A stretch of 64,000 nt of DNA from Enchytraeus crypticus (Eukaryota; Annelida; Clitellata; Enchytraeida; Enchytraeidae): positions 1,729,501 through 1,793,500 of the forward strand of contig CAJHZI010000192.1 of NCBI GenBank assembly GCA_905160935.1, given 5' to 3'. Position numbers and translations under genes: made by a program. Under the pieces are notes generated by a model. That model saw nothing but the letters and a program-made list of their open reading frames with translations, searched no databases and was not told the DNA's origin. Of the stretch, positions 31,091 to 60,200 are shown one piece after another; within the stretch, counting starts at the first letter, position 1; every line of letters starts with the position of its first letter.

Positions 31091-31719
31091 CGATTGCCTT
31101 TATATACGACTAAAATCATCACACAAACATACTTGAATGCTGGTAGATGACGCAATTCTCCGCTCACGTAAGTTTACGATTAACACATTTTATCACAAAT
31201 ACAGATATTTACCGATGATACCAAACACAGATGCTTTGCATAAGTAAAGGATACGAATCACACGATTATCACAATATATTAGTACTATTTCTTACTTTCT
31301 TCCGACATACACGCCTATATACATGTATAATTCTATATCATAGACAGCTTAATGTTGAACATGATATGTAGGATGGTTAGATAATTACACGACGTTTGTC
31401 GGAAGTCCATTTAATTCACTCATATTCATCGTCGCTTGAATCGTTTTCTTCTTCTTTCACCTAAAACGATACCAAACACAACACAATTCTGCGTTATATC
31501 AAAGGTAAAGTTAACAGAGGTAAAAGAGAGAAATAACCCACATTACACTAAGTTTATAAACCTGCATTACACTAAGTTTATAACATTTCTACACGATAAC
31601 GGCACTAGAATCTTATGGCCTTTATAATCGAGATTTTACGATTTACTAAAAAGTACGATTAGAGACTGCAAGTGAGAATTTCAAAGAGCACTTTTCTATC
31701 ACGGCCTAGACGGCTTAAT

Positions 31720-31721
<2 letters not shown>

Positions 31722-31818
<97 letters not shown>

Positions 31819-31862
31819 CCATCATCTTCCCTTAAATCTCAGTTTAACCAGGGTCGGGAAAG
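31722..31862 (-). mobile_element. LINE family D tail with long (ATC)n microsatellite
   Basis: About 33 ATC triplets followed by ttcccttaaatctcagtttaaccagggtcggga. In the minus sense this is the LINE D 3' end plus its GAT-repeat tail, expanded. The poly-serine frame through it is an artefact of the repeat. Confidence 0.85.
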
Positions 31863-32087
31863 AAAAAGAAAGTAATTGTACAAGAGCTAATTAACCAGTC
31901 TGCTAACACCTTTCTCTCATATTCGTGCATTAAATAACAAATAAAAACAACAGTAATAACACTGATAATAACAATAGGAAAATTCATTATCAACGTGTGC
32001 TTTGGCGGATTTTTTTAACTATACGACCTCGAGGAGCACGCAGCGAAAGCAACCAAAAAACAAAAATCTCTTTAGATTTATTTGCTT

Positions 32088-32153
32088 TCATTGCGCCCAT
32101 AGGCGAGAAAAATTCATATCACACCGAATTAGCAACCTTTTCTTATTCTCAAG
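32088..32153 (-). CDS. MAP3K4: candidate terminal exon of MAP3K4
   Basis: After the exon 24 minisatellite the first plausible 3' exon in phase 0 starts after ccggcccag: 21 codons (LENKKRLLIRC to SRLWAQ) and TGA. An AATAAA signal follows at 32082-32077. The peptide does not resemble the vertebrate C-terminus, so only position, phase and poly(A) signal support it. Confidence 0.28.
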   Translation of the reverse strand, partial: LENKKRLLIRCDMNFSRLWAQ

Positions 32154-32174
32154 CTGGGCCGGTGGCGAAACACA

Positions 32175-32763
32175 ACCACAGAGAAACAATCATATACCAT
32201 GACAAACGACACATAACCATAGAGAAACAATCACATACCATGACAAACGACACATAACCATAGAGAAACAATCACATACCATGACAAAAGACACACAACA
32301 ATAGAGAAACAATCATATACCATGACAAAAGACACATAACCATAGAGAAACAATCATATACCATGACAAATGACAAACAACCACAGAGAAACAATCGCAT
32401 ACCATGACAAACGACACATAACCATAGAGAAACAACCATATACCATGACAAACGACACATAATCATAGAGAAACAATCACATACCATGACAAACGACACA
32501 TAACCATGGAGAAACAATCCCATACCATGACAAAGGACACATAATCATAGAAAAACAATCACATACCATGACAAACGACACAAAACCATAGAGAAACAAT
32601 CATATACCATGACAAACCATAGAGAAACAATCACATACCATGACAGACGAAACATAGCCATAGAGAAACAATCACATACCATGACAAACGACACACAACC
32701 ATAGAGAAACAATCATATACCATGACAAAGACAAACCATACAGAAACAATCATATACCATGAC
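32175..32763. repeat. 41-bp minisatellite built from the exon 24 donor
   Basis: About 14 copies of a unit reading on the plus strand gacaaacgacacataaccat then agagaaacaatcacataccat. In the gene's sense each unit holds GTTTGTCATG|GTATATGATTG, the same bases as the exon 24 end and donor. Confidence 0.95.
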
Positions 32764-32937
32764 AAACGGATGTCGCAGCAGCAGGGAAGCAGTCCACCTC
32801 TGCTGAGGATCTTTCTGGAAGATATGATCCAGGAACTCCTGACCTTCATCGCTTAGTCTCTCAGGAATACGGGGGATGTTGCCCATTCCAACCTTGAAGA
32901 AAATTTGAACCTTATTTTCCAGTTCCGGCCACGGCCT
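32758..32937 (-). CDS. MAP3K4: MAP3K4 exon 24: kinase C-lobe
   Basis: Residues 1591-1650, [48 protein letters not shown]. Acceptor atgtttag|AGG. The kinase fold is complete here. If read on without splicing, the frame stops after about 15 more codons inside the minisatellite; splicing at ATG|gtatat is more likely because vertebrate MEKK4 has a short tail after this position. Confidence 0.92.
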
Positions 32938-35900
32938 CTAAACATATAATGTTTGATGTGATGAATAAATAAAAAAATAAATAAATATAAATAATTCACA
33001 TCATATTGTGAAATAAGTAATTTATATAATTCATATCATAATATTCTTTAATATCAGCTTAATTAAATCATACAATTTCTCTGCGATAAATCACACGATA
33101 TGCACTTATTTATTGAATAGAATCTAGTAGCAAGATGGAAATTTCACTCGAAGCTGTTAAGTTGACAGAAAATGACTTTTAATAGCAACCATACAAAGAT
33201 TTCTCATTGCCCTCAACGGTGTAGAATGCAACGATCCTTTTTTAATTTCACATCTTTGCACAGGTTTTCTTGACTTCAGATTTTGCACCCTTTTAAGACC
33301 GTTTGTATTGTGCTCGTCAGCTTCGATTCAGTTTATTACTGCTCGATGTTATCACGGACGACAGTAGCACTCTAATTGTTGTTGTCATATCTGTGGTAGT
33401 CGTATGTTACAAAACACCGGCATTTATCTTATCCAATCTTACTAACATCTTTTTCAAGTGAGGAAATTGAAGTTAATACTAGCTTTTTTACCCAGCTTTA
33501 TGATTTATTTCAAAGGATCTCTAGACCAGACACAGAAGGAAACTGTCCAGCAGAAATGTGGAGACTGTAAAAGCAAACCTTTCCAGTTGTCATTTCAATG
33601 ACGACGCAGCCCACGCTCCAAATATCGGCCGCTCTGCCCAGCCCTTCCTGACTGTTATTGATCACCTCAGGCGCCATGAAAGCTATAAAGTACATGAAGC
33701 TATCAAATACATGAAGCTTATCAAATACATGAAGCTATCAAATACATGAAGCTATCAAATACATGAAGCTATCAAATACATGAAGCTATCAAATACATGA
33801 AGCTATCAAATACATAAAGCTATCAAATACACGAAGTTATCAAATACATGAAGCTAATCAAATGCATAAAGTTATCAAATACATTAAAGTAATCAAATAC
33901 ATGAAGCATGGTGTAATACATCAAATAAAATAAAGAGTTTATGTAATAAACAGAGAGCGAAGTTTACCAAATTCAATAGTACAAACAATACAGGCTAAAG
34001 ACAAGTATGGCGTGAGGTTTCTAGCTAAAAGCATAACAGCAACTGACAGAGCACTAATTTAAGTCCGGCTCCTACAGATCCACAATAGTTGTTTAACTAA
34101 CCGGGCAGCTCATCTCATATAAGTCACATAAGAAAACACTGTAGAGTAAATACAATACAAGCGAGTAAATACAACACAAGCGAACAAATACAACATAACA
34201 GAGTAAATACAATACAAACGAGTAAATACATTTCAATAAGGAAACTTGTACAACCGCTGCTCATGACCTAGTACTAAACGTAATATACAGAGCAGTATGC
34301 ATCACAGATTTTAGAAATAATTCTCAGAATTACTAGTAATTGAGAACGATGGTAAAAATTTTGATGAACAAAAGGCTTAAATACTGTCTGCTTCCTCAAT
34401 TTAAATTAATTAAATTAGATCCCTGGTTTGCCTACACTGGACTTCAATGACTGTGTGATACATACCCGGTGTGCCAACATTAGGCTTCAGTTCTCCAGGA
34501 AGAGTTGTGTGATTCTTTAACTTCACCGAACATCCAAAGTCTCCCAACTTTACATGACCGTGTGTCGTTAAAAATACGTTAGCTCCTTAAACACAACATA
34601 TGTGCATTGTTAACGTTAGTAGATATCTCTAACATTTGTTTATAAGATGTTTCTATTCAAAAAATTCATTAGTTACTTTTATTTAAGTCAAAAGGAAGGT
34701 CAAAAACATATTGACAAAATGAAGTCAGTACCTACCACTAAATTATACTAACTGCACTTTCAACTTTCTCTATTGGAATGCTCTTACGCTCAACCTACTC
34801 ATATAAACAAGCTGCTGGGCATGTATTAAATTTTCGCTAATAGATTTTGCGTTAGTAAGCCGACTACCTTTGATGTCCCTGTGAACAATCCCATGATCAT
34901 GAAGCTCGTTGACAGCTAGTAGAATCTCTTTAGTGTAGCGACGTATCAGCGGCTCCTCCAGGCCTTGCTTAGCGGCTAACTCCTCTATAGTTCCGTTCTG
35001 ACAGTACTCCATAAATATGATCATCTCGTCCTGTGAAAACAAGCAGAGCTTCTACATGTACAGTACTGATTATATCTCACCACGTTCATCCATACACTGC
35101 TATTTAGACCAATCTAACGAAACGTTCATAACATCAAAACGATAAGATATCAGTCAAAATAACAGCAGCAAAATATTTTTTTAATCTTTCTCCAACTGAA
35201 GCAGGGTGATTCCCCACGCTGTGGAATGGAGGGGGCATCTGACAACCAACGGGGGGGGAAACATCATCTAACCCACGGGGGACACCGTCCACCCCGGGGT
35301 GCCCCTCCAACCCGAAGTGCACCTTCAACCCAAGGGTGCTCCCATACACCCAGGTGGATGTCCCCTCCACCGCTAGAAGAGCACCCCGAGGGGGCACGGT
35401 CCCTTTACCCCGGGGGCATTCTCCTTTCCGGACTAGGCATTCTCCATCCCGGTGGGCACCCTCCACCTCGGAGGGGGTGGCACCCTCCATCACGGGAGGG
35501 GTATCCAGTTCCCCTGGTTTCCACCACGGGGCACCCTATGCTCCGGGGTACTCGGAGAAGGGCATTTTACGCCATAACAACCAAGACCTGCCAAGCCCTG
35601 GAAATTTCCGTCCCAACATATTGCCAGTAGAGATACTCCGCTGCGACTGCCTACCTAAAAATATTTCCCTAATTAGCGAGCCGAAGCTCGCATCACCGAC
35701 CTGAGACGAGACGCCTCGAGATCAGCAGTTAAGCAGAGGAGGGATTGACCTAGGTCAGCATCTCTTCTATCGTAAGAGAGCCTTGATATCGTCTCAGTTA
35801 ACTGATGACTGATGTGACAAGCAATCAGGAACTGGCCTTTTATACTGCTTCAGAGGCGTAACAGTCATGTGATTGCAGAAGCGGTTAAAAGCCGTTACCC

Positions 35901-36961
35901 TAACAGAAAAATATAATGAGTGTGTGATTTTAACAATTGTCGAAATCTATAGATAAACTGTACATGCATTAATTATGCACTGTTCATAAACATGATAAAA
36001 ATCCAAAATAAAATGTATTACCCGATGGACTTCTACTCCATAGTAGTGAATGAGATTTGAATGATCTATTCCTTCCAATATTTTAATTTCATCCGTGATT
36101 ACCTTCACAGTTTGCAAGTCATTCGAAGCAAACTGCACCTAAACACAGTAAATATCACAGCATGCATTATGTTGAATATACGTGCAGATTTAATTTGTTG
36201 TTAGTTTTTCACATATGTATCACCACTAGGGTTGATGATCGAGACTGCTTTACAAGTCAACTGATGTTAATTGATTTTTTATGCCATCCAAGCTTAAACC
36301 AAATCTCGCCCTACAGACTCAATATGGTTGCAAGCTCATAAACATAACCCTCACAGAGTCCCAAATTTATGTAGATTAGTATACTTATTTATATTTACTG
36401 AGTAAAACAAATACCTAATCCTTCTTTTTAGAGGAATAGCTTATACGGCGTGCACAGTTTTTCTAAGATACTTAGACATACACTGATCTCAGTTACACTG
36501 AAATAAAAAAACTAAGGTTAACGTCAGTTTCCTCACTCGAAAGCGATGTCAGTGACGGGCGAGCCCAGGATTTGAAACCTGCACATACTGATCCGCGGTC
36601 GAGTATCATATCGACTTCGACACTGGCTCCAGCCAGGAAACCAATAAACCTAGGAAGCTTTTTTATTTAGCTAATTTTTATGTTGGCAGTATAGTCCAGA
36701 TCCAATAAGACTTAACAACTGTATCAATGTAGCAAACTCCATTAAAAAGTGTCAGGAAATTAACACACACCAACAACAGGAAAATTACTCGAGAATTAAG
36801 CTCAGAAAAAGTAAATAGATCATTAAACTCTAATAGAAGTATATTCCTACCTCCTTCATTGCCATCAGTTCACCAGTATCCATATTGACTGCAGTATATA
36901 CCTTACCAAAATGACCTTCACCTACAAAATCATAATAATTAGAACGATTTAAAGTCTTATC

Positions 36962-36993
<32 letters not shown>

Positions 36994-39900
36994 GGTTTAA
37001 CGTCAGTTTCCTCATACAAGGATGATGTCTGAGGCCGTTCCCCATCACATGTCACTACAAATCGATTCACTCCAAACGATCTGAAATAACATGTGCTGAA
37101 AAGAAAACGATCCTAAACGGTGCCGGTCCAGTGATAAAAAAACAGATATTATAGTGGATGATGATGTTGTGGATATTCAGCATGTAGGAAAACATACATA
37201 TGTAGTAAGCAAATACACGTAATGAGATACTTACAAACAAGTAGTATAAAACAAAATATCTTGATCTGTCATTTTGCTTTATCAGTGGTAAATACAATAC
37301 AAATAAATACCATTTTTAAAACTTTAGCAAGAAAAAAATCCAAATTTTAGGAAAGTAATATCACTTTCCTATAGGTAATATAATAAAGATTTCTTCAAAA
37401 TTTAAAAAACATATGAAATAAATATTCCATAAATTAAAATTGAAGTTATAAATTGCACAATATGTAAGCAGTTTCAATAATTCAATAAATAAACAAGACT
37501 TAATATCATTACGCAAGTAATAAAATTTCATATTTAACAAAAATATAAAAGAATAAAACTACGAACCAATTTTAATGCCTCTCTGCCACTTAAAGTTGAC
37601 TTTCTTAAGGTTGATGTGATAGTCGATATCAACTTTTTTATTGGTAGGTCTACCGACCACATGCTCCTTGTAGAGCAGGTTGATCCTCTTCTGCTCCAGA
37701 GTCCTGATCTTCTTCATCATCTTCTTAGTCCTCTCCACCTGCCCCACGGTGGGTCTCATACAACTCCATACCCCCTGACCGTCCAGGAAGTCAGACAAGT
37801 CTGCAAATTAGTCAATATCAATAGACCTGCTTATCTATAAGCAGCTTTCTTATCTACTTAATTGCATCATTCATTACGTTTGTTTCAATTTTGTGCACAT
37901 AGTGTATTATTTACTTACAATCGTGATTTTCATTTGGTATTTGCAAATTCGTCATTATTAATAGACTATTATTTGTATTTTGTAATTTCTTTATTTATTA
38001 CATTTATCACATCATACACATTTAAATATGATAAAATATTTTACAGAAATAGGAAAACAACATTCCGCAAGTATGAGTGAAGCGGTTAATAAAGGCTATG
38101 GACAGCACTTACATATTCCCCGATTGTAAAAAATTAAACCTTAACAGTAACTAAAGTTGCCTGAAAAAGTTGTATTAGACTGCTTATCTATCTATTAGCA
38201 GCTTTCTTATCTAGCTCACTGATACAAAAAGATGTAAAAAGCCGATGTTAACGTCAGTTTTCATCTCTCAAAAGCGATATCTGTGATGGGAGAGCCCAGG
38301 ATTTTAATCCATACATACTGATCCGCGGTCGTATATCTTAACGATTTAATATGAGCTCACCAATATAATCAAGTTCATCATAAAATGAGCTCACTGGTAT
38401 AACCAAGTTCGTTACAAAAGGAGCCAAGGGTGAGTATAAAGTCAGCTTAAGCATCGCATGGGATACTGTAAGAAATAGATACATTAGTAAACTAATAGAA
38501 GATTTCAAAATAGCTCTGTTATAATGATCAAAAGCAGCATTAGGCTGAAAAGTAGTCTAGAAGATCACATCTCGCGACCAATAAGGTAAGTCTCAGACTA
38601 GTAGAGCTTGAGTGTGCCTCAAACACCTCAAACACTATGAATAACAACAACAACAACAACAGTAACAACAACTGACCAGTGCCACTAGTAGAGCTTGGGT
38701 GTGCCTCAAACACTATGAACAACAACAACAACAGCAACAACTGACCAGTGCCACTAGTAGAGCTTGGGTGTGCCTGAAACACTATGAACAACAACAACAA
38801 CAACAACTGACCAGTGCCACTAGTAGAGCTTGGGTGTGCCTCAAACACTATGAACAACAACAACAACAACTGACCAGTGCCACTAGTAGAGCTTGGGTGT
38901 GCCTCAAACACTATGCCTACATCGTCATCGTTGTCAGCAACAGAGGACGACAGAGTGGAAGTAGACGCGAGGCTTCTTCTCGAAGCTGAAAAATAAATTG
39001 TAATATAAAGCCACAAAATAGAATGACGAGAATATCAGCATAACTATTAAATGAAATATCTATTTCTTGAGTTCTTTAGAGTTATTTTACATAACAAGAT
39101 CATATATTTTGTAGGTTTTTAATTAGCACTGATTAATTGACATTTAGTGTTTACTCACTGAATTGATTTTGGCTTCATAGACCTCAATTAGAATGTTACT
39201 GTGAGGTAACATACTAATTGCAGTGCTGTTATTGCTTATGTAGTCTATATTTCAATTTTCACTTGGATACAAATACTATACAATTCCTTTAAAACACTAA
39301 AAAAATGCTCCCTACATTTGCATGGCTAGAATATTTTCTGATTTTCAATTGTATCTCTTATCTAAGCTCTTTTGACCACGGCCATTTCAATTTAACAACT
39401 AAAAAATAGAAAAATATGTTAAATTAAAAACACTCATTTTTTACTAAATTGAAATATCTTTTTAATAAGCACAACTTAATATCATAGCAAGTTCAGACAG
39501 AAGACAACTAGCGTCAGCATATTTCGCAAGGAATGTAACTTTCCACGCCATCAAGCAAGAAGAAGAACCATGTAGATAATCCAAATCGCTAACCTTTGTC
39601 CATCAGAACCAAAGTATTAAAGAATTTTACGAATTTACACATATTAAATCTCATTGTACTAATATTTACTAAATACAACATAGTATTTAATAAATATAAT
39701 ATAATATTTACTAAATACACTGTATTTAGTGAAATGGTCATGATGCTTACTCTGGCGTGATGGCCGCATGAATAATGGCGTAGACGGTTCGCTGTAGCGC
39801 AGAGACGGTAGATTTCTAGAATTCTGTCGAGTAGGCTCTGGACAGGAAGTATTTCGTAGTAAACCCATCTTTGTCAGCAGCTCTGGGCTCTCCATGCGAT

Positions 39901-42059
39901 AGGCTACACATATATATACGAAACAGAGTCGATTTAACCATGAGTTAAATCGCAGGGATCGTACTTTGGAAGACAGATAGTCCCTGGAAGTGAGAAGATA
40001 TCTAGCTTAATCACCTATGACCTAGTTCTTATTTACTCAATGTTGTTTACTTTAAGCTACTCGGTTGGCCTATGCGAGAGGTAACTCTAATTGATAAATT
40101 ACTAACCCTATCCCTATTGTATTGGAATAATAACTCAACTGTTGATAACAGCTGTTTACTTGTTGAGTGACTGATTGATTCTCTCGACTAGTGTCGATAG
40201 CGATCTCGGTAGAGCACTCGGTTTCAGATCAGCATCCGTGGAATTCAAATCCCATGCTCGGCCGTTACTGATAATAGATCGTACGTGAAGAAACTGTCGA
40301 TAACACTAGTTATATCTTTATACTGTTTCTAAAATATGCAGGATGCTTTTATTTAACAATTGAACAATCCGTACATATGAATCATTTAGAAACAACTAAG
40401 GCTAAACAAACCACACTGTTCAAATATATAATATTAAGCATAGACACGGTTAAAATGCTACTATAATTAAACAGTAAACCGAAACCAACGAAACTGGCTT
40501 AGTAATGACTGACTTCCCTTTAGTTAAAGAAGTATTAGCTAAGCTTTTCAATACCCGGTCGTAGTGGATTCCCACCTCGGACTATAGCTGGGCCAACTGG
40601 ACGGAGTCTGGACTAACTAATTTCTGACTTTTACTTAACTAACTTTTCCGGGCTTTAATCCAGCTCTTTATATAGTAAGCTAATCGTATTCATAAGATTG
40701 CTCATTAACCAAATCATGTAGTGAAGTCCCATTATGACATAATAAATATCAGTAATATTTCACAAACTTGGCTATAATTCATAACTAAAGTTCGTTACAT
40801 GAACTCGGTCATAAAACAGAAATTACTTCTTAAGATTAATTGGTAAGCAAACTCGGTTGCTACAAGATTAATGAAGACTTATGTCGAACTGATTTCACAG
40901 CTCTCTTATATTAATATATCAACATATCAGTAATATTTCTTCATACTTGAGATAATAGAGTTCTGCTTCATGATAGATGATTAACTATAAATCTTTCCTT
41001 ATGATAAACGATTACATCATAAACCGGCCTAGTGATTGACAGGTTCAGCTTTGAGAATACCAGTTTTGTTACATCAGTTCTTGTAGAGAGTTATTAGTAG
41101 TAATCTGTCTTAGTCGTGACTGCCAGATGTATATATTGCCTGCCTTATATATTAATTGCCACTTCCTATGCCAGGAAACTTATAAATGACAATGGCCTTG
41201 AGTTCAAACCTGCATTTGTCCATCAAAGTCATTTGTTAGACCATACACTACATATATATACAGGGTGAGTATAAAAAAAAAATAACACCTGCAAAAAGTT
41301 TGAATATCTCAGGCTATTGTTAATATTTTACAATAAAACTTTTACCAATTACTAAAGGACTAATTTTTGATGGGGTGGCCAATTTTCATCCATTTTGGTA
41401 CATAGACAGGCCAGTTATGCAAGTTTCAGCAGAGCAACCCCCCTATTTTTACCTAAAAATGGCGTAAAGCACCTCCTGCAGTTCTGTCTTGTTTTTAGGC
41501 TTCGGCTGGTGTTTCTGATAGAGATGCAGCATGGTTCCCCAGATATGGTAATCCAGAGGATTATGATCGGGTGAGTTTGGAGGCCATTCATTCTTCTTGA
41601 TGTAATACGGGTTTCTCTCGCTGATCCTTTCCTGTGCATGACGAGATGCATCAGCCGGAGCACTATTCTGCTGAAAGATGAAACCATTTGGTAGAAGAGC
41701 ATGGCAATCATCAAACAGCTCCGGAAGCAAAGTACTGATGTAATACTGAGAGTTCAACCTTACCTTTTCGTCAATGAAGTGCAATCTGCCCTTACCGTTG
41801 TAGCAAACGCCATTTAAGGTAAAAATGGGGGATTGCTCTGCTGAAACTTGCATAACTGGACAATCTATGCACCAAAATGGATGAAAATTGGCCACCCCAC
41901 CAGAAATTAGTCCCTTATTAATTGGTAAAAGTTTAATTTACAAATATTAACAATAGCCTGAGATATTCAAACTTTTTGCAGGTGTTATCTTTTTTTTTTA
42001 CTCACCCTGTATATATATATATATAGGCTACGCATAGGCTATATATATATATATATATC

Positions 42060-42126
<67 letters not shown>

Positions 42127-45100
42127 TGCGTCTATAGATAGTAGAGAGTGTCTAAAAGTTACAGTATAGAAATTTAGAAACTTATGGACTTTGGACTTAT
42201 GGAATATTTGATGTTCCATTAGGTACTGAGATATTTAGACCTACTTTGCTCAAAATTTTAGAAAACGAAAACTTTATGGAGGTTCTCGTTAGTTATATGA
42301 CATGGCAAATGTGGAGGAAATACAACAGAAATAATAACTCGGTAACAAGATTTTAAAGAGTTAAAATCTTATTTTAATTCTTTAAAATTAAAAAGTTAAC
42401 TTACGTATTAAATTAAGGATTTAATACATAAGCAAAAATAGTAGGATAAATATTTCCTGTAGAATTCATATTCCTGTTTAGAGAACTCTAACTTCAATGT
42501 ATAAACTTTTTGCCACTCAAAGACGGAAATATATTAAAGCGTAAGAAGAATCTAATAACACATATGATGTATTGAACAAGGTTCGTGTGGTCATACTATC
42601 ATGCACAGGTTATATAAGAGCATCATAGCCACAAATAGTCTGCAGTAGTGAAGTATCCAGACAAAACCACGTAATAACAGTACAAATCCAAGAAAATATT
42701 ACATACCATTAGAAAATTAATTAATCTAAATTTCTTGAAATTCATTTTAGTATCCATGCAGTCTCTAATTCAATTCTATTTGCTATACCGAGAGTGAGAC
42801 AACTGAGAATATAGCGTCAGATAAGATGCATAAGAACGTATTATGCAACTATAACCATTACAGCAAATGAAGGAACATTGGCCTGAATCAACATCGTTGT
42901 GAGTCAGACCAGTTCACTGGACTAGTCTGAGCGATCATCCCGTCACATTGTATGTGGCTGTTGAAAAACAAGGCTACTTATTTCTTGCTGAACAAACAGT
43001 TAAGAGGATGCGATATAGAGCTGAAGATTGATTGATTGATTGATAGAACTTACTGGGTGTACTGAATCCGTTTTTCTCGCCTATCACGTGTGTGATGCAG
43101 CCATTGATTGTATTCTTCAGCTCCTACAGCACAACACAACTCATAACACATCACATACCTTACAGCACAACACATAACTTACAACACAACACATAATTTA
43201 TAACACATCACATAACTCACAACACATCACATAACTTACAACATATCACATAACTTACAACACATCACACAACTTACAACACATCACATAAGTTATACCA
43301 CATCACATAACTCACAACACATCACATAACTTACAACACATCGCATAACGTACAACACATCACATACCTTATAACACATTATACATCTTACAACACAACA
43401 CATAACTTACAACACAGCACATAACTTGCAACACATCATAATCATATAACTTACAACACAGCAATAACTTCCAACACATCACAACTTTCAACACAGCACA
43501 TAACGTACAACACATTATAGAACTTACAACACAGCACAAAACTTACAACACATCACATAACTTACAACACATCACAAAACTTACAACACATCATATAACT
43601 TACAACACAGCACATAACTTACAACACATCACATAACTTACAACACAACACATAACCTACAACATATCACATATCTTGCAACACATCACATAACTTACAA
43701 CACAGCACATACCTTACAACACATCATACATCTTACAACACATCACATAACTTACAACACATCACATAACTTACAACACAGCACATACCTTACAACACAT
43801 CATACATCTTACAACACATCACATAACTTACAACACATCACATAACTTACAACACATCACATAAACTTATAACACATCATATATCTTACAACACAACACA
43901 TAACTTACAACACAGCACATAACTTACAGCGCAACACATAAATTCATAGAGCTTTAAAAAAGTACGCACAGTAATAATAACGACAAAAGAATCGGTTTAG
44001 ATATTGCACCGTCTTCATCGTCTTCCCTTGAATTTCCGTTTAACTAGGGTCGGGACTTTTAAATTAAAATGTTGTAGGAATTTCTGGAGCCTAGGCGCCC
44101 AAATTTCCTTTCTGACGTTAGTTTAGATTTCTAAGATTCTGTCGCCTTTATGACATGTGCAGTCCACGGTTGGTCTATTCTTCAGAAACTCGGATACAAC
44201 ACGGGTAAGCACAGAGACTAGGCATGAATTATTAAGTAATTAATTAGAAATAGTAACACAGGATCAATCATAAACTTACAGCGAACTCTTGGTCAGTGAG
44301 AGTGGTGAGCACACGAGGCTCACACGCCACGATCAGAAAGTCCATTCCTTGAGCAGCCCACCTACAAATAAGATAAACAAATCCTAGTCCAACTACAAAT
44401 CATATAAACATATTCTAGCCCACCTACAAATAAGATAAACAAATCCTAGTCCAACTACAAATCATATAAACATATTCTAGCCCACCTACAAATAAGATAA
44501 ATCCTAGTCCAACTACAAATCATATAAACATATTCTAGCCCACCTACAAATCATATATAAACAAATCCTAGCCCACATACAAATCATAAAATCCTATTCT
44601 AGCCCAACTACAAATCATAAAAACCTATTCTAGCCCAACTACACATCATAAAAACCTATTCTAGCCCAACTACAAATCATAAAAACCTATCCTAGCCCAA
44701 CTACAAATCATATAAACAAATCCTAGCCCACATACAAATCATAAAAACCTATTCTAGCCCAACTACAAATCATAAAAACCTATCCTATCCCAACTACAAA
44801 TCATATAAACCTATTCTAGCCCACCTACAAATCATATGCACCTGTTCTAGCCCACTTATAAATAATGTCAACCTATCCAAGAAATATCTCAGCTTCTGCA
44901 AACTAAGCAATATTTAAATTAATTTTCTACGGCATAAATTCGAAGCTATTACATGGCAACAGCTTAAAAAAGAAGACTTTTACTGGTATCAAATTAAGAT
45001 GGAATGCTGTAAACATCTCAGAAACTAGAAATGCTTTCTGTTGCATTAAATAGATCAAAATTTGTTAAAACATCTAAATAAGGAGTTAAATAATTACATA

Positions 45101-48100
45101 AGGCATCAAATCTTCCTTCCTTAAGGTCCATGTTTCACATCCACGTAATAGCGTGGTCCATATCAAGGAATCACTATCTCTATCTTAGTGTCCTGTACGA
45201 AAACGATTCCAATGGCACCAACTTCCAGCCACTAACTAGATGGCACTGCTTCTGATCGCTTAGATTTCTCACTGAGGTTCGCACGTCATTGATATCACTT
45301 AGGTCTCACAGCATGACGAAACTGACGTTAAACTTGAATAAATAATTCAGCTTAAAGCCTTACCTTGGTCTTATACCCCTGCCACGTTCACATTTCTCAG
45401 ACACAAATTTCATCCACTGATTAGCGAAGTGAACTAGAGCCGTCGACAGCTGGTTGCGTAGCTCACCAGAGACTAGCCTTGTGACACCCTTGTGATACTG
45501 TACACGTTTAGTTATCATTCTAAATGCCATACTACTTTATGACTTGACTTCTATTAGTTATCATTCTAAATGCCATATTTATGACTAGACTGGTAGTTTG
45601 ATAAATATCAAACTACCAGCCTCGTCACGCCGTTGTGATACTGCGCACGTTTAGTTATCATTTGAAATGCCATACTTATGACTAGACTGGTAGTTTGATA
45701 AATATCAAACTACCAACCTCGTCACGCCGTTGTGATACTGCGCACGTTTAGTTAATATTCTAAATGCGTACTACTCATGACTTCTCACTCGACTGGTAGT
45801 TCTATAGATGCCATATCATTTAAAGGATGTACTAATTATGACAAGTAAGTATAAATAATTATACTGAACTTACTAATTCTAATTATAACTAATCATTTAA
45901 CTGCTCATTTGGTGAAGTAAGTGTCATACAACCAAGCCTGGAAGACATATTTTTTCAGGTAATAAAATCAATTCTCTTCGATACATTTCCACTAACCATC
46001 TTTGGTTAATAAATTAGTAGTGCTGTATGCTACAGGGACGTCGCTAAAATCATCCTTGGTTAAAGAAACAGAAGTTAAATCTTTAATATAATTATTAATA
46101 AGATGGAAAACTCAGCAGCAATGCTTTCTTTCTGGATAGACGACAACAAAAAATAACTTAAGCACCTAATTTATGCCCACTATTTAAACCTTAATGTTAA
46201 AAATGCTGAATATTACCGCAAATGATATTTGAATTAAAATTACTTACAAGCAATATTTATTTTTCACAGAGAATGGTAAACTTTTAGATAGCACCTTACA
46301 ATAGTTTAAAACAAACTGTAGGACAATATTATCATCCCACAATATTATACAAATGTAAACCTTTGGAATTTATTAACTGTATGCGTATGTAGAGCACTAC
46401 TGTTTATAACACACTATAAGATGCTCTTCTAGGACTTCTAATGTCACCCGCATCAGTTAAAAGGCTTCATTCTAATTCCGTTCAATGAGAATTGTCCGTT
46501 CAATGCTACTGTCGCATTTAACATAGAGCGGCGCTTTATAAATATACTTATTATTATTACTACTATTATTTAAATTTATTTCATTATTTTTATTTTTTAA
46601 ATGCCCCGGGAAGCATAGGGCCCTGGGCTAAAAAATAAGATAAAAGAGACTTTATTTAATTTAAAGTAAAAAAATGAAACGATTAAAATAATTCATCTAC
46701 ACTCTGGGAAGCCACATTAGATAAGTTCCCAATGACATTGCACATAATATAAAACTGATTTCGGCAGAGGACTGTGCTACACAACCTCAAATCCAAAGTT
46801 ATAGCACTGGTGCAGAGTCTCCTTGTGAAGCTTCTGTATGCTGACCTTGTCAGCCTCGTCAAGGTCAGCCAGGTCATCAGGCACCAGTCTTCTGTCCACC
46901 TCAGCGATAGCAGTGGCAACTTTCTCTCTCAGATCAAACACGGCACTCTGTAGAGATAGGCAAGAGGTATATTGTCTACAGCACTATACACACACCAACG
47001 ATTTATATTCCCTATTTTCTATCATTTATATTCCTTTATATTCTCTTTAGAGTACTTATCTTTGGATTGGTATTTTGGATATTGAGTGTATATATTATAT
47101 TTCATATTATATATTATGTATCATATTATATTGTATTATAATTATATTCCATTATATTCTCCTTAGATTACTTATCTTTGGATAGGTATTTTGGATATTG
47201 AGTGAGCACTTTTTTGTTTTTTGATTCAGCAGATTGGCTTTGGTTACATTGTGTTCGATGTTGTCATTGACGATAGTATCATTCCAATCGTTATCGTTGC
47301 ATTTTCAATATAGAGAAGAAAATAATAAAGTTAACAAAGCTAAAACCAAGTTTAACGTCAGTTTTCTGATTGCTATCCAGTCAGTAACGGGATAGCACTG
47401 GATTTCTTAACCCTGCATCCACAGATCATCTAACAACTTGCCAACAATCCTCTAGCTCAGCCCGTTATTATATAGTAACCTAAATACATATTATAAATTC
47501 AACACAGCAGACTATTAGTTTAGTCATAATTAATATGATTAAATCTGTGACATTAGTGCCTTCTATAATACTTAACACAATAAATATACTCACGTCAAAT
47601 TTTTTATAATTTTTTTCTAATAAATTTCATTAAATTCATCAGTAATTTCGAAATAATTCACACTTAAAAAAAGTCAATGTGCTAAAGCTAAATTAGCTGC
47701 ATCACACAATATGATGATTGATGATGATGATGATGATGACTGTTTCGATTATTTAATTATTTGATTCTGCATGATTGTTTTAAAAAGTACATTTTTAAGA
47801 TAGACAGAGAAACGAGAGAATATAGGAATTCATGCCTTGAGTTCAGCAAGAGACTCGGAGATAGCTTGATGCCAGGAGATCTGCTCACTCTTCGGCATCA
47901 CAGAGTCTTTCATAGTGACCTGGAAGTTACGTCTGACCTCCATCAGTTGATTTGAGTGGCTTACCACTAACAGTAGTCCGTTAACCTGTCACAAACATTC
48001 CTTGACTTTAGAATGTCTTAATAGCGTAGGGGTAACGTCATGAAGTTTTAAATGACAGATCCTGAGGTGAATTGAACCTTCGTGGGTTCGAATCCCAGCC

Positions 48101-51100
48101 GCGCTTATCTGGGAGTAAAATCTCGGACATTAACTGGACTGGTTAAACGGAAAATAGTCTAAATTCGCTCAACGGTTTAAACATGTGGTATTAAAAAGTG
48201 ATAGATATCAACATAGTTGATCGTTTCACTATAATGCGTGTTTACTTTTACTTTTTTTGACATGTGTCACTGCAAATGTAATTATACACTCTATCATCAT
48301 CACCATCATCATCACGACCACCACCATCATCATTATCATCAGCATCATCATCATTATGGCCTACCTATAAATAATCGTTCTCAGTAAATTTTCAGTAAGC
48401 ACACCCAAAATTACAAGATTAATTTCAATGGTCTTAATAAAAGGCACAGTTTATATTTTAAGAAATAGGGGATTGATTAATGATATGGTGTGGGACAGGG
48501 AGGACTCGAGAAAGTCTATTCGTATCCCGACCCTGGTTAAAATGGGATTTAAAGGAAGATGATGATGAATAAAAGGCATAGTTTATCGGCATAATCAACT
48601 TTAGAAAGAATACCTGCGATAGACTTGGACAAACCATTCAACTACATATCTGCTGTCCGAAATCATATCCAAGACATTGACTCAACTATTACATATCAAC
48701 ATAACATCAGGAATCAAGCAAAGCATCGTCAACAAACCACAAAATATATATCGTTAAAATATCGTTATATATCGTTCTTTATGTGCGTGGTTCAAATCCA
48801 GGGCTCGTCCGTCACTGACATCGCTTTCGAGTGAGGAAACTGACGTTAACCTTAGCTTTTTTTTAAAAACAGAAATGTACTGACCTCAATGTGAATGAGA
48901 GTTATGGTAGTCTCAGCAGTTAGCTTCACTTTCACTACAGGCCCTTCCCACTTCAAATCACCCTCCTCCCCCTCACTCCACCCGTCCAGCTTAATCAGCA
49001 GCAGGTACTCGTTGTTTGACAAATGGGAGGAGTCATCGGTGAATCTATCTAAGCCACGCCCACACGTCAGATTGAGCAACTGAAGAATTTGCTCTTCGTT
49101 GTCTCGAATAGACTGCGGTATGAATATCAGATAGTCCGTATCCTGTGGTGTGATTACCTGTCAATCAATCAATACATCAAATACACAATCATTAAATCAC
49201 TATTAAATCACAGTATTGAATTATATATCGAATAATTCTATAAACTTTGGTTAGGACCATGCTATTGTATGGATGTGAAACATGGACCTTAAGGAAGGAT
49301 GATATTAGGAAACTGAAGGCATTGGAAATGTGGATTTGGAGAAGAATGGAGAGTATTAGCTGGACTCAAAAGGTTACAAATGAGGAAGTTCTGGAGAGGG
49401 TTGGCACAGATAGACAGTTGATAAATGTATTAAGAAATAGGAAGAAAAGTTGGATAGGACATATTCTAAGGGGGGAAGGTCTATTAAAAGAGGTTATAGA
49501 ATGTAGAAAGGAAGGAAAAAGAGGCAGGGCAGGCCGAGATTAGGTATGTTAGATGATTTAAAGACCCACCCATATGTGGAAATGAAGAGGAAGGCAGAAG
49601 ACAGAGAAGAGTGGAGGCGTTATACATGTATATCATGGACCTGCCAGTAGGCAGTGCACTATGAGAGAGAGATAATTTAATAAATAATTCCATCTCTAAA
49701 AGAATTATTTAATACGTCAAATCAATCAATCAATAAATCAATGCATTCAAATATTCTCTCTCTCTCTCTCTCTCTCTCTTAGTGCAATGACTATAGGCAG
49801 GTCCATGGCATATAACTCCTACACAAATTTCTATCCTCTGCCTTTCTCTTTATGTCAACATATGAATTAGATATCAAATCATCCAGTATCCCACGTATCG
49901 GTCTTCCTCTAACCTCGGTCTCCTCTATTCATATATTAAATCACAATAAAAAGCAGTGCGTCGTCCATGCAACACTCACCCTAACGTGTCCGGTGTCGCT
50001 CAGCAGTCTCAGAAGCTCATCGGCTTGTATTGCAATACTGAACTCTGCGGCAACCTCCAGATCCTACAAAACAAATACGTAGTGCAAGATCTATCGTAAT
50101 TTTACAATAATAATAATAGAGATAAGTTAATAATAGATAATAATAGAGATAATTTAATAATTATATAATAGATAATTTCAATATAGATATGTTCAAATAT
50201 AATAAACTAGTTAATAAAATTCTTCGACACTTAACGACTTGCCTTCTGCAACTTTTTCCTTCATTTGCGTATGCTCTCTACTTATTTTGTCTCGTAATTT
50301 GAAACATGTACACAGTAAAGCATTATACTTGTCTTGCTTACAGTATCAACTATATTACTTAATGATATACAGATGCTGCAACACAGAATAAACTCTACAC
50401 TTTTCCGTAATTAATAAACTAACATCAAATATTCTCTATGAAGTTCTACACAAAAATTTAAGTAGAATAATAACAATTTTAACAGTCCCAATTTCAATTT
50501 TTTAAAATATTTTAATGATAATAGCTTTAAATATAATAAACAAATAAACAATTCTCTTATGAAATTATATTACACTACTACTAATTCAAACGACTAACTT
50601 TGCGAAGCATCTTAGCAAAGCCGAGCGCCTTGGTAGACCTCTCTCTGGCCTCACGAAACGTTTCCTTGAAATGTCGACAGGTCTCAGTTATAGCTCTCCT
50701 GCATCAGAATCATTAACACAATTAATATACAAAAAAAAAACAGTACAAAAAATAACTTTATAACATGCTAAAGATTTTAAGTAATATTGAGAAAATTAAA
50801 TTTTCATGTCTTTTAAGCTTCACATTGACAAAGAGACTGGATTAAAACTAACACAATAAATAAAACTCCATTAAAATATAATTTGAGACATTGTTGAGGT
50901 TTAGAGAGTCAATAATCTTTTAAAGCATAAAATATTAAATATTAGTATTCTTTGCTTATTAAAAATTAATCAATTGAAACCTAAACTAAACTTAAAATTA
51001 CATTAATATAATAGTAAAAATTCCTAATCTACCTAACCTTCCATCAGAGTACATTATTATAACAATTAAAAATTCCTAATCTGTCAAACCTTCGATCAGA

Positions 51101-54100
51101 TTACGTAAATGTGATAGCTAAATAGTTAGTTTCGTTTAGGACCTTACTTCTCCTTAGCACATTTATTTTGCTGATTCATCATCATCATCATCATCATCAG
51201 TTCCTTGAGTTCTGTACAGAAATAGGGCGGCAACATTCCTCCATTCGTTTCTATCATCAGCAATCTTCACAACGTCTTCCCATGAAATGCTTAATGCTCT
51301 CAAATCCTTATTTATCGTATTTAGCCAAGTACTTATAGGTCTTACTCGTTTTATTTTTCCTCGAGTTGGTTTCCAGTTAACTGCTGTCTTTGCGTATCTA
51401 TCCTCAGACATTCTTAGTAAATGACCTAAAATTTTGTAGATTGGTCTGGGTGAGTTGATCTGTAGTGCTGTGTGCTGTTGGGGACGTCCCTGACATCATC
51501 CCTGGATGAGGAAACGGACGTTAAACCTTTATTATTATTATTATTATTAAAATCTGGCGTACCTTCGATCAGATGACTTGTTGGCCCTGAGCTGACCCAG
51601 AGAGTCTGCAGACAGACTCCTCACGTGTCTCTCAGGAGAGACCTCCTCGGCACTCTCCACTGTCGTAGTGTCGTGCAGCTGATGTATGCAGTCATCCATC
51701 CCCGTCTCCAGGAAATCTGATATAGACTTCACCAAGCTGCTAGCCATCAAACTGTAATGCCAATCAATCAATCAGTCAATAGATCAATCAATCAATAGAT
51801 AAATGAATAAAAAATATTAATAATGGAAAGATAATAATCAATCAATAGATCAAACAATCAGTCAGTCAGTCAATCAAACGTACAATCATATAATTTATCA
51901 ATCAATAAGAGCAGCTGTTCTACAAATACAGTCCAATATAGAATTTGCTTAGTTATATGTCATCAAACTGTAAATCATTCAATTAATCAATCCATCATTC
52001 AACAAATAATTGTAAGTGTAACTGTTACTTATAAATACAAAGCAATACAGAATTTACTATGTTACTGGCCATCAAAACTGTAAATTGATTAATCAATCAA
52101 TCAAACAATAAGTATAGCTTCAGTAAAGAAGTATTCGTCCTGGCTACAGAAAATCTACTAATAGACACAAAATAACAAATAGAGATTTCAACATGCAAAT
52201 GGATATCAAACTGTATAAATAATTAATCTATCAATCACTAAGTGAAATGCAGAATCTATCAGTTAGAAACTCAATCAAACTATAAATTCTATCCAGATAC
52301 TGGCCATTAAACTAGACTAACAAACAGTGCAGCAGTTATAGTCACAGTACAGTAGATGACTTGTCTAGGCCATAAAAAAATCAAATAGAGCACCAGCTCA
52401 GCTAGCTCATAATGAGTACACTTTAGATCATCTAAAAACATGTAGTCAGTGAAAAAACAAAATCACTTAATTACAAAATTTCCAAAACTTTTAACTTAAG
52501 AAAAGGCTCAAATTAAGAAAAGGATTCTAGTTTCATAAATATTATCTTCCCCAGCATCTGCATTAACTTAGATTTTTCACACGTGCAGCTTAATTTGAGT
52601 ATTATTATATTTTTCAGAACTAACATAGTAAAAATAAAAATATTAGTCAACTGAATAATTACCAAATAATTTAACAAGCACACAAACTAAACAAGCATGC
52701 AAACTAAACAAGCACACAAATTAAACAAGCACACAAATTAAACAAGCACACAAACTAAACAAACGCACAAACTAAACATGCACACAAACTAAACAAGCAC
52801 ACAAGCTACACAAGCACACAAATTTTCAACAAACACATTAAGCAACAAAAGCTTATAAAGCTGACCAGAATCTATTCCCTGCATTTGCTTCACCACCCTG
52901 GATGTGTGGACAAACTTTCTTGGTGAAATTCCACTCAGCTTCTAGAAAGTTCTTCAACCTCTTTGACAGTTCTGGCAGCTGTTGAAGATGAGACATGTAG
53001 GACTGAATGTAATCGAAATAGACCTGCACAGTGTTGACAAAAAAACATGAGGAAACTGAATTTAGCCTGTCGTTATAATTATTAGAGAAATCCCATGGAA
53101 AAACTGATTATTACAGAAGAACAGTAAGTATATTAACATTTTAAGCAAATAATCTATGTACTCATTTAAATGAATAGAAAAGTCCCAAATAGGGGATGTA
53201 TGATACGATGTAGGACAGAGGCGATTACACACAGTTTATTCGTATCTCGACCCTAGTTAAACTGGGATTCAAGGGAAGATGATGATGATGATGAAGATGA
53301 ATCTAAGTACTTGTTGGCTTGGATCGGATAAGTCAGTGCTCAATGTTGGCCCAGACGACAGCAGCACTTTAATTATTGATGTTGTTAGTACTAAATAACG
53401 TCCCTGACATCATCCCTGGATGAGGAAATGGACCTTAAACTATTATTATTATTATAAATAAACCTCTAGAGTTTTCTTCATGTCAGACTCGTAATGTTCC
53501 ATGTCCAGCTCAGGACTCTCGTGCTCGGCACTGGATGTGATATCAGAGACCATGTGCTGAAAGTAGAGCTTCTGAAGCACTGCGGTGTACAGAGACTCCT
53601 TGCACTCGCTTATCAGCTGCTCAACATAGCGACAACACAGAACGCATTGTAAATGAATAGACAGAAGTAAAGAGGCCAAGTTTTGATTAAGAAGGATATG
53701 AATAATACAGGATTGACTGATAATATTGCAAGAGACAGAGAGGACTGGAGAAAGTCACTTCGTATCCAGACCCCCCGTTAAACTGGGATTTAAGGGAAGA
53801 TGATGATGATGATGATGACGATGATGATGAGCACAGTGAAGAAGAAATGCTCAAAATAAATACTTCATATAACATAGACGAAAAATAAGCATGTACATGA
53901 GATGAAAGAATAATATACACAAATAGTGAACATTAGAAATGATTATATAAACAAATGCAATGAATTCTTAAATCTAAAGATACTTAGAAAAAATTACTCA
54001 TAACACAAGCAAAATAACTAGCAATTGCTACAGAGTATTTGTTACATAAATAAACAACTAATTTTTTTATATGACTAAATGACTAATATTTACAGAAATA

Positions 54101-57100
54101 ACGACAGTTGAGTGCAGTAAAACAACTAATTTATTTATATGACTACATGACAAATATTTACAGAAATAATGACAGTTTATTGCAGCAAAACGTATAGAAG
54201 AATCAAGTTTCCATGAACCTGTTTAAGGCTGAGTAAGTGTGGATCTTTCTTCGGTCGCTGTTCAAGCCTCAATTTCAAGCATTCGTGCATGACATCGAGC
54301 GGAATACGAGTGAGGAAGAGATAGATAGGTTTGAACGACGGCAACTTCATCTCAGTGTACTGTTGACTAGAACAACCGTGCGAGTAGAGATCATCACAGT
54401 GATCTGGTGCCATCTGTGAACAGAATATTCATTTATTAACTTCAATTCAGCCAAATTTTAAATTCTAACATCAATTGTCATCATCACAATCACCATCATC
54501 ATCACTATCATCATCTCCATCATCATCATCGTCATCCTCTTCTCTTTAATGCAAGTTTAAATAGGGTCTGGATATGAGTAGATTCGATTTGTTTTAGAAA
54601 ATTTTGTAGCATTTTCTAAAACAATCATAATAATATATTGTATAATCTAGGAGAGCTGTTTTCAAGGTAGCCACTTCAAATTGTTGTATAGCTACAATAT
54701 ATATTCTTTGTATTTGTAAATATTTGTGCTGAGATCAACAGATAAACTTTTAATTTAAAGAAATATGTCATAAATTATTGTAACTTATAACTTACCGAAA
54801 CAACTCAAAACTCCAATGAAGTACTTGTGTTGAGATTACAAATGCCTAATATACCACTCAATTCAGAATAGTTTAAATAGTACCTGGTCAAGAAATGATA
54901 GATAGTTCAGGTAAATAATGTTAAGGGCAAATGTAGGGCGGGCTAAATAGGGAACTGTAATTAATAATTAATAGTAATAATTTAATCATAAATATTGTGG
55001 TAGAAATAAAGTCAATTCCTGAATTGTTTATACGGACAATCAGGTATATTTAATGTTTTAAACCATAAAATAGAACAAATCGAAAGTAATATGTATGCAT
55101 AACACTCCTCACCTCTGGCATACCCCTGTGAACTAGTGGCTGTTTTAACAATGCATGTCTTGCTCTCTGCAAGCTGCTATCCAATAGATTTTTCAGCTTT
55201 CTGTGCAATTTTTTCATCCCCATCTTCTTCAATTCATTCTCAACGTAATGCCTGTAAACAGAAGTGACGGAGAATCCTTCAACGCTACTGGCAGCCGACA
55301 GAAGAGGAGGTTGACGAGTGCTTAGTAACGACTCAGATGAATCACTGGATTCAATTGGATTAGTTTCGTTGACTTCATCGTTAAACCTAACGCTCTTCTG
55401 CCGTGCACGCTGGAAATTAGTCCGAACGGCTTCTGAGCTGAGAGGTGCGTCTTCCTCGTTTGACTTCTCATCTTCTTCTTCTTCGTCTTCTTCATCTTCC
55501 TCCCCACCATCATCTTCACCAATTAATGCCTCATAAGACTCTGACAAAGCTGTATCACTATGAGAAGAAATTGACAACGAGCGATTCCTCAGCAATTCCC
55601 GCAGACAATTAATATCAACGCAATCCCAGAGTGTGTTATCGCAACGATGAATCACCATCATGTCTTTCATTTGATGAAGTTTGGCACAGAGATCTCCTGT
55701 TATATTTAACCAGAGACAAATTGTTCCAAGCCGAGCCTGAAACTCGGCACTGGCGTATAGCTGATGATCTCGAGCGAGTGACTTTTGGGTGGGATATAGC
55801 GACTGAATGTATTCTATCCGCTCCACGAGCTGCATCAGCTCAACGAGAACTGTGTTTTGATGCCTGAAATCTGACCTCAAGCACAGGCCAAACATTTCCG
55901 TCGAGAAAGCACAAAGAGAGCCTCGTCGTGAGCCGCAGCAGAATCCTCCCTCGCTAGCGGAGGAGGCGGAGTTACTCTCCGGAGGTTTCAGAAGATTGCC
56001 GTCGTTAATACGATCGCTGACTTGATAACTCATAAAGTCTTCGAGGATTGATTTAACGCTGGCTCGTGCCGAGCAGAGGTAACTGTCCTGATCGTTTACT
56101 TGTCGAGCCCTGACCTTGGCCTGCAGCTCCAGCCATATTATGTCGCTCAGGCGTGTCTGCCACACTTCCTGCTCACTACTTCTCTGCCGCGAATAAATCG
56201 CGGCTTTGGAGTTAATCTAAAACATCGCCGCAAGTACATAAAGGCTTTAAAATTAATCTAAAACATTTCGAAAGTGCGTAGAACAAAAATAAGAAGAAAT
56301 TATTAAATTAGAAGATATTAGAAGATTACTTTAACATAAATTGTATAAATAATGCTCAAGAAAAAAACAACTCTATGATGATTTGAATAAAGAGGTCTGA
56401 ATTATCACACAACCTGACAAACATTTGAAAATAAAACTGCCGTATTTTAAGTGTAGGAATAAATTCTCTAATTTTCATAATTATAATTCAATATAACGAA
56501 TGCATTAGTAATATTGCAAATGAGTTAGAGATAATTATTAGAATTTCAACATTTTATAATTTTATATATAAAACAATTTTATAAAATATTTATAAAATGC
56601 TTCAATTATAATTATTTTTAAGGCTAGTTCTTCTACAAAAATAGATAACATGAAATATTAGATAACTAAGAATATTGTGCATTTTGAGGCAACAACATAA
56701 AAGACAATCTCGCTCACTCAGTAGCAATTAAATTTTATTAATTAATGATACAAAAATTCGGATGCATTGCTACACATTTAATCTCAATCAATTTAAAATT
56801 TGCATACTACATACTACACCAATCCAAAAAATGTCATGATAACTATCAGCTAAAGAGCTTGCAGAATTTTGCAAAATCAATCACACAGTGTAAATAGATG
56901 TGCTGGAGCCAGTGGCAATGATGGTAAGATATTCGCCTTGCGGATCAGTATGTGTGGGGTTCAAATCCTGGGCTCGCTGTCACTGACATCGCTTTCGAGT
57001 GCGGAAACTGACGTTAACATTAGCTTTTGTGATATTTCAACTTAAGCCCATAGTCTAGCTCATGTTGTCAACTTAGATTTGATTCAATAGTGCTGGATGG

Positions 57101-59279: not shown

Positions 59280-60060
59280 TTAATTATTGTTAATTTTAAC
59301 CAAGAATTATATCTGTATCATTAATTTGCTGCCAAATAGGTAAAAGTAAGTGCTACAATGAAGTATGCAAAGACAAATTTGGAAGATTGTAGCGATATAT
59401 CCAGTGACGGAGCTAGCAAGATCTGCAAAAATTACTCAAGAGTTCAATAGGTACTGATAAAAAAGCTTAGCATCACATATCCTGTCTTGAAAGTCAGTCA
59501 ATTATACGGCAGGAATAGATTTTAACTCCTAATGCATCTACTGATCTGCAGTTGAACTGCAGTTGAATGGATCGCATGAATAGTAACGATTATAGTGTGT
59601 TCATATTTTTAGGATACAGAGACAACTCACTGAAAGTTCTACAGACAGAAAGCATTACTGGTTCTGGTGTTCTTTAAACAGATTGTGATTTAGGGATTTG
59701 CAATTAGTATTACATAATTTTGAAGATGCTGATAATTTAACAGAATTTTACCAGCATACTCATATCCACCATCACAGCATATCTAAGTATCAGGTATACC
59801 GAAATAACCAAAAGCTTATTTTAATGCCTAATGAAAACTATAAAATATAATTTATCATTTATGCCACAAATTGTGCTCTAAACTACATACATACTTTCAT
59901 TATTCAAGCAGAGAAAGGCACATGATATAATAACTCGTTAATCAGGAGCTGCAGACATTTAGATCAGAATTTGTCCAATAAAACTACGCAGAATGTCAGT
60001 AGACGAATGCATACTAATTATAGACATATTCAGATTTATATTATATTACATATATTTAGC
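59280..60060. other. AT-rich DNA upstream of MAP3K4
   Basis: No coding exon or repeat recognised. Confidence 0.4.
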
Positions 60061-60064
60061 AGAT

Positions 60065-60200
60065 CGTTAGTGGGCATAAAAAATACTGCCGGAACAAGGC
60101 GAAGAGAGCGTGACCGGGATCAAAATTGCCAGAACTGAACAATGAGCAACCTCTGGAACTAAGCGCACCGCGCAACGTCAAGAAAGTAGCAATGCACAAG
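60065..60200 (-). promoter_or_regulatory. possible MAP3K4 promoter or 5' UTR exon
   Basis: A short GC-richer island in AT-rich DNA, about 1.1 kb upstream of the start codon, reading in the gene's sense cttgacgttgcgcggtgcgc ... atcccggtcacgctctcttcgccttgttccgg. It has a TGACG core (CRE-like half-site) and no TATA box. The ATG exon has an acceptor-like taaaatag just upstream, allowing a separate 5' UTR exon here. Position and base composition are the only evidence. Confidence 0.25.

Follow-up and report, generated by a model that had tools for sequence, protein, structure and literature searches.

MAP3K4 and its surroundings

Most of the right half of the window, as we call the whole stretch of 64,000 nucleotides that was analysed (contig C110, 1729501-1793500, of a 524-Mb animal genome), is occupied by a MAP3K4 gene on the minus strand (58957..31416). 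The gene was modelled as 25 coding exons and 24 introns, which together give one stop-free frame of 1665 amino acids, and the exon numbering is identical in this model and in an earlier note on the same DNA. The Pfam domains MEKK4_N (E 2e-198) and Pkinase were found in the product, and most exons could be aligned with the MAP3K4 of molluscs, of an annelid (Owenia) and of vertebrates. On the basis of this alignment the acceptor of exon 5 was shifted by 3 bases. The stretch of exon 17 is not conserved in the aligned mollusc, annelid and vertebrate sequences; this exon was modelled on splice signals, phase and open frame, and we chose the first of several near-identical donors as the true one. 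The start of intron 11 is apparently GC (AAG followed by GCATGA, boundary at 47836/47835), which would make it a GC-AG intron.

The best-scoring named relatives of the C-terminal part of the protein were mainly molluscs, Owenia and nemerteans, with a fish in fourth place (best 120 of 1215 matches), and for the N-terminal part Haliotis came on top and vertebrates next (best 120 of 637 matches). The nearest match was a protein designated P0121. Branchiostoma is absent from both sets of best 120 matches, whereas an amphioxus sequence would have had its own protein at the head, and the reading that the window comes from amphioxus was rejected. In a tree the window's MAP3K4 was joined with one further protein and placed next to Owenia, with weak support. 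Judged by these comparisons, the MAP3K4 of this genome appears to group with those of lophotrochozoans, and the animal is probably lophotrochozoan-like, a placement that we leave at this level.

To the left of the gene lies an open frame of 550 codons (6368-8020, plus strand), which may encode a reverse transcriptase. Two tandem arrays were observed towards the ends of the window, namely a GC-rich array of an 89-bp unit (62482-62936; 5 copies with 96% matches) and an array of a 34-bp unit (1-392; 11.5 copies) that is interrupted by the window start. Outside the gene, minisatellites are about half as dense as in the introns (0.45 versus 0.80 arrays per kb); the 55.5 kb counted comprise window positions 1-31000 and 59501-64000 and the 10 kb that flank the window at either end.

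Duplicated exon borders in MAP3K4

For each of the 48 exon borders of MAP3K4 we determined a score S, the best match running through the border with at least 4 on each side, both in the border's own intron and in the 23 other introns. The latter, non-cognate introns were chosen as the control for border matches; a reversed-sequence null for the repeat families was dropped after it had yielded 122 matches, simple arrays in our opinion presumably matching their own reverse. In nine of the 48 cases the border's own intron contains a copy that spans the border and outscores any match in the 23 others: the acceptors of exons 3, 7, 13, 14, 16 (doubtful) and 23, and the donors of exons 7, 17 and 24. 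Their own-intron S ranges from 14.5 to 67, and for none of the 48 borders was an S above 11 found in any of the 23 non-cognate introns. All six borders that the earlier note had named (acceptors 7, 13, 14 and 23, donors 17 and 24) were reproduced in the 25-exon model. It was also right in describing the unit lengths as unrelated between loci and the arrays as local, the nine duplicated borders being without an equal match in the other introns and the exon 24 array matching its own locus in a genome search (see below).

Taken in the order of the gene, and all on the minus strand, the duplications are of varied form. The acceptor of exon 3 (56186..56266, border at 56216/56217) is duplicated in 2 units of 41 bp, with about 31 exon bases copied (S 17.5). 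At the acceptor of exon 7 (51745..52215, border at 51751/51752) degenerate, spaced copies are found at 51967 and 52210 (S 14.5), with a further related copy near 52076. The donor of the same exon (51015..51577, border at 51562/51563) recurs in 52-bp copies at about 51000-51104, at a distance of 473 bp (S 17). Unrelated sequence separates this donor from its copies, perhaps as the result of an insertion. The acceptor of exon 13 (45472..45767, border at 45497/45498) has a 97-bp unit with 2 copies besides the border and 21-26 exon bases, and that of exon 14 (44355..44881, border at 44361/44362) a 31-bp unit in about 16 copies, each with 7 exon bases. Intron 14 contains an array of about 42 copies of a 19-bp unit (43127..43948) that reaches the acceptor of exon 15. 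The earlier note had listed this array with the duplicated borders; the array itself is present, but the likeness of its unit to the exon 14 donor is weak, with an S of only 11. The doubtful case is the acceptor of exon 16 (39894..42048), for which TA-rich partial matches lie 2.1 kb upstream (42038; S 15). In the preceding intron 15 lies a transposase-like open frame (41415-41937, minus strand) that resembles the mariner type.

The donor array of exon 17 (38597..38915, border at 38874/38875) consists of 4 units of 63-69 bp, the border included, and of a truncated unit in addition. Each unit has 41 exon bases, the donor copies are all in one phase, and the frame at 39034..38540 (minus strand) is open through them. 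Use of the alternative donor copies would add a repeat of 21-23 amino acids in frame, which makes the array a possible coding VNTR. The acceptor of exon 23 (33675..33907, border at 33682/33683) has a 17-bp unit in about 13 copies with 3-8 exon bases, and the donor of exon 24 (32166..32768, border at 32757/32758) a 41-bp unit in 14 copies plus the border itself, with 9-11 exon bases. In the exon 24 array GT is kept in 14/14 copies, and 11 consecutive bases spanning the donor, TGTCATGGTAT, do not vary across the 15 units (permutation P 0.002, for a run picked post hoc). When this array, the only one so compared, was searched for in the whole 524-Mb genome, a close match was found at its own locus only, next to two stretches of 74-75% elsewhere on the same contig. 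The idea that the arrays are copies of one dispersed element was rejected on the strength of this search and of the lack of an equal match in the gene's other introns.

ATTG-rich runs stand directly before the AG of several intron ends, e.g. ...TTGATTGATTGACAG; they were seen at window positions 51752-51780 and 49158-49180 and in the sampled loci L010, L014, L032 and L048. Such runs are a possible seed for slippage on the acceptor side.

Duplicated borders in other genes

A sample of other genes was taken from the same genome by way of its rows for the Pfam profiles Pkinase, Myosin_head, DHC_N2, AAA_6 and Kinesin. Adjacent exon matches were paired, and the introns between them were solved from the reading frame, the position in the profile and the score of the splice sites. 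In this way 143 introns were solved outside MAP3K4 (7; 60 of 85 pairs; 71 of 89; and, for kinesin, 5 of 11), seven kinase exon pairs having been picked by eye. The dynein rows on C178, C283 and C353, one short row on C210 and one row on C775 (75320-75394) were left out. The sample consists mostly of dynein heavy chain borders, so that its genes do not stand for a random selection, and the 38 genes were assigned by us from contig position. For 123 of the 143 introns the spliced 40-residue peptide gaplessly matches another fetched locus across the join. The same holds for 31 of the 34 duplicated borders outside MAP3K4 (the other 3 lacked a checking match), and misplaced exon borders were rejected on these grounds as the main cause of the duplications.

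With MAP3K4 included and the kinesins excluded, 43 of 324 borders in 38 genes (162 introns) are duplicated, in a count that omits low-complexity borders and does not require superiority over other introns. They are spread over 42 of the 162 introns and 18 of the 38 genes. The number falls to 41 when the copy must also outscore the other introns, and 38 of 294 borders are duplicated after removal of the introns that share at least 40% with another locus. The exon-side score is at least 8 in 35 of the 43. A CT microsatellite at the L009 donor (position 446) is included among the 43 and also enters the 14/134 figure given below. Donors and acceptors (17 versus 26) do not differ significantly (P 0.22). 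Across the sampled borders the unit lengths range from 17 to about 140 bp, and the splice dinucleotide is intact in 101 of 113 copies. In the kinesin set 2 of 10 borders are duplicated; the five kinesin introns enter the Tandem Repeats Finder test described below and are absent from the family, 43/324 and recount figures.

The impression conveyed by the earlier note that MAP3K4 is special is not supported by this comparison. Its rate of border duplication is not detectably different from that of the other genes (9/48 versus 34/276; Fisher P 0.25), and neither is the array density of its introns (0.80 versus 0.79 per kb).

Two observations on the dynein loci may be added. The introns of L041 (C199) and L051 (C109) are 84-86% alike, and the two loci could represent a recent gene copy or two haplotypes. 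On C178 (634799-639147, minus strand) DHC_N2 and most of AAA_6 lie in one frame of 1177 codons, which would be a dynein heavy chain gene with few introns and perhaps a retrocopy.

Borders are overrepresented per repeat family, not per base

Counted per base, exon borders are not preferred, contrary to what the earlier note had supposed. In MAP3K4 845 of 4231 interior intron points (20%) fall in a local duplication, as against 9 of the 48 borders by the same test. In the other genes the figures are 14/134 for borders versus 1736/8056 for the interior and 18/142 versus 1629/6749, in counts where borders alone were held against other introns and simple repeats were left in the interior. Random intron bases, with rates of 20-24%, are no less often duplicated than borders. 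Since expanded arrays multiply interior bases, the number of repeat families is in our view the better count of events.

Counted per family, the picture is different. In MAP3K4 7 of 22 families straddle a border (8 of 22 in a hand count that includes acceptor 7), where 1.5-2.4 are expected. Outside MAP3K4 37 of 123 families do so, versus 8.2 expected under uniform placement (P 6e-16) and 13.2 when expansions and 30% of the intron length are removed (P 1e-9). When a minimum of 8 bases is required on either side of the border, 28 of 123 families remain (5.7-9.3 expected), and among the families of at least 90% identity 24 of 72 straddle a border (5.3-8.0 expected; P 1e-7). Dropping the 14 introns that share at least 40% with another locus gives 32 of 111, versus 7.2-11.6 (P 1e-13 to 3e-8), and in no case was a family counted at two borders. 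When the arrays of Tandem Repeats Finder were placed as rigid blocks within their own introns, 24 of 108 straddled a border versus 10.1 expected (P 1.2e-5), and in MAP3K4 5 of 19 versus 1.5 (P 0.011). The gene sample, in a test close to the junction-overlap test that the earlier note had proposed, has straddling arrays above random placement by both routes (37/123 and 24/108). The excess outside MAP3K4 is 2.4 to 4.9 fold, its size depending on the null model, and the figure for the recent transposon content of the introns, 12-18% shared between loci, is a lower bound. Borders are therefore not the commonest target per base, yet they are overrepresented per repeat family.

The excess outside MAP3K4 is strongest for multi-copy arrays, of which 28 of 71 straddle a border (4.7-7.6 expected), and weak for two-copy duplications (9/52 versus 3.5-5.6), although the two-copy duplications of at least 90% identity again show one (8/32 versus 2.0-3.0; P 0.0005-0.008). 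In the other genes, the unit of a multi-copy array that lies closest to the border covers 10-12% of the borders between -3 and +20 bp, and no more than about 1% past 100 bp; such units are concentrated in a zone that extends about 20 bases into the exon and about 60 bases into the intron. The coverage by two-copy duplications is nearly flat to 220 bp, going from 0.035 to 0.012-0.028.

Relation to the mirages of amphioxus

The earlier note knew of no described system of this kind, but one is on record in amphioxus. According to the available text of two papers, amphioxus has so-called mirages, minisatellite-like tandem duplications that contain an exon-intron boundary (PMC3087553, PMC3902484), in the genes for Adh3 and globin (PMC3087553) and for PGBD5 and troponin C (PMC3902484). 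Length and somatic instability with undisturbed splicing are reported there, and the way in which mirages arise is called unclear in the same text (PMC3087553, PMC3902484). As far as these descriptions go, the likeness is close: the unit contains the boundary, as at the MAP3K4 borders; 5' and 3' boundaries are both affected (here 17 donors and 26 acceptors); AG or GT is retained in many, though not in all, copies (here 101/113); and the unit length is local and locus-specific (10-72 and 150-160 bp in amphioxus, 17 to about 140 bp here). Since the amphioxus mirages match these arrays, the kind of repeat is already known. Here the spliced MAP3K4 frame is open and mostly conserved. Differences from the amphioxus cases are a genome whose MAP3K4 groups with lophotrochozoans, the nine borders in one gene, the 43 of 324 sampled borders and the measured junction excess. 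In the open-licence papers that were searched by title and abstract start, no mirage report outside lancelets and no genome-wide count was found, so that the taxon (lophotrochozoan-like), the nine borders per gene and the measured junction excess are new as far as the literature was searched.

Other described phenomena touch on these arrays. A paper of 1995 reportedly, to go by its title, deals with tandem repeats that provide one transcript with several splice donors; likened to that title, the arrays at exons 17 and 24 could also supply several donors. Introns are likewise said, in the titles of Rogers 1989, Zhuo et al. 2007 and Gao and Lynch 2009, to come from tandem duplication or tandem arrays. 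The origin of introns by tandem duplication is treated in the available text of a further paper (PMC4974935), which shares with our case the local tandem duplication at splice sites; new introns are formed there, whereas in our case it is the existing introns that contain duplicates of their own borders. Tandem repeats that modify human gene structure have reportedly been described (PMC2812944), and the minisatellites of an earthworm lie, in the part of the report that is available, within an intron and not across its borders (PMC12783039).

With about 1 in 8 sampled borders having a local self-copy (43/324), this genome would offer a large natural set on the choice of the spliceosome among near-identical sites. 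The measured junction excess makes the origin of mirages testable within one genome. One may also ask whether duplicated borders are a source of new exons, of new introns or of coding repeats, the copies at exon 17 leaving the frame open.

A mirage seems to be visible even in a plain Pfam search. At L048 (C775:75320-75394 and 75487-75558) the AAA_6 profile positions 1-25 are matched twice, 167 bp apart, as if the exon end had been copied along with the donor; the true exon end at this locus may be at the other copy of the double match.

Origin of the junction-straddling repeats

The repeats are junction-straddling minisatellites of the mirage kind, and we consider it probable that their excess at borders is due to exon-anchored growth or persistence more than to directed birth. 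The genome produces many local tandem duplications in introns, some of which straddle a splice site. Such a duplication would be tolerated because the exon and one working splice site remain intact. The array could then expand and shrink on the intron side by slippage or unequal exchange, while selection would hold the exon part of the border unit, so that the array would stay pinned to the border and keep carrying copies of the splice site. The arrays, their local character, their presence in many of the sampled genes and the junction excess per family are observed; we infer in this scheme the engine (slippage or unequal exchange), the tolerance, and exon-anchored growth or persistence as the cause of the excess. 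Identity among the donor copies is 0.92-1.00 over the nine exon bases that adjoin the border, versus 0.61-0.87 for the intron bases from the fourth on, a figure in which the exon 24 array, with 14 of about 49 copies, carries much weight; this asymmetry is consistent with pinning on the exon side. The acceptors do not show it. Among the 15 arrays with at least 4 copies the rank correlation of identity to the border with distance is negative in 9 and positive in 6, without a steady fall.

It is possible, though we hold it only tentatively, that the arrays are born at the junction, where the step in composition at the border, splicing-coupled structure of nascent RNA, stalling of replication or transcription, or end joining would seed multi-copy arrays. 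The border excess per family points this way, as does the higher array density in introns (0.79-0.80 versus 0.45 per kb outside the gene). The excess among two-copy duplications of at least 90% identity (8/32 versus 2-3) would suit directed birth and go against persistence. However, two-copy duplications of all identities are little in excess (9/52 versus 3.5-5.6), and intron interiors are duplicated per base at least as often as borders. The MAP3K4 arrays, moreover, have no common unit length, and their borders have no good match in another intron. Junctions might, with a similarly modest probability, be hot spots at which an amplification coupled to splicing, to transcription or to the change in composition at the border repeatedly gives rise to minisatellites; duplicated splice sites would then be supplied steadily, in animals as far apart as amphioxus and the present one.

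It is unlikely, in our estimate, that there is no bias at all and that in a minisatellite-rich genome some arrays overlap borders by necessity, the undecayed exon copy merely making them more visible. Such a reading agrees with the rates per base, which for borders equal those of the interior in MAP3K4 (9/48 versus 845/4231) and are lower in the other genes. It also gains when more of the intron is discounted, since counting 40% of the intron length as old leaves P 0.04 for MAP3K4 and P 0.005 for the first 67 other introns, and a doubled visibility weight, with expansions and 30% of the intron length removed, leaves P 0.06-0.15 for MAP3K4. Against this, the excess outside MAP3K4 retains P 1e-9 after removal of expansions and 30% of the intron length, and 1e-7 at an identity of at least 90%; it survives the removal of near-copy introns and recurs with another tool and null (Tandem Repeats Finder).

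We regard it as very improbable that selection maintains the copies as backup or decoy splice sites. The dinucleotide is intact in 101 of 113 copies, and the exon 24 array, with GT in 14/14 copies and an invariant 11-base run over the donor, would fit such a role. The exon bases adjacent to the border are, however, about as well kept as the splice site, so that this conservation lends little support to selection for spare sites. The exon 14 array has lost AG in 3 of its 16 copies and the exon 23 array in 5 of 12 listed ones, and splicing to a copied exon 23 acceptor, at steps of 17 bp, would in most cases put the kinase domain out of frame. An assembly artefact, with tandem copies mis-joined or inflated, is hardly credible, since the copies bear their own substitutions, each locus has a different unit, and duplicated borders occur in 18 of the 38 genes, spread over many contigs.
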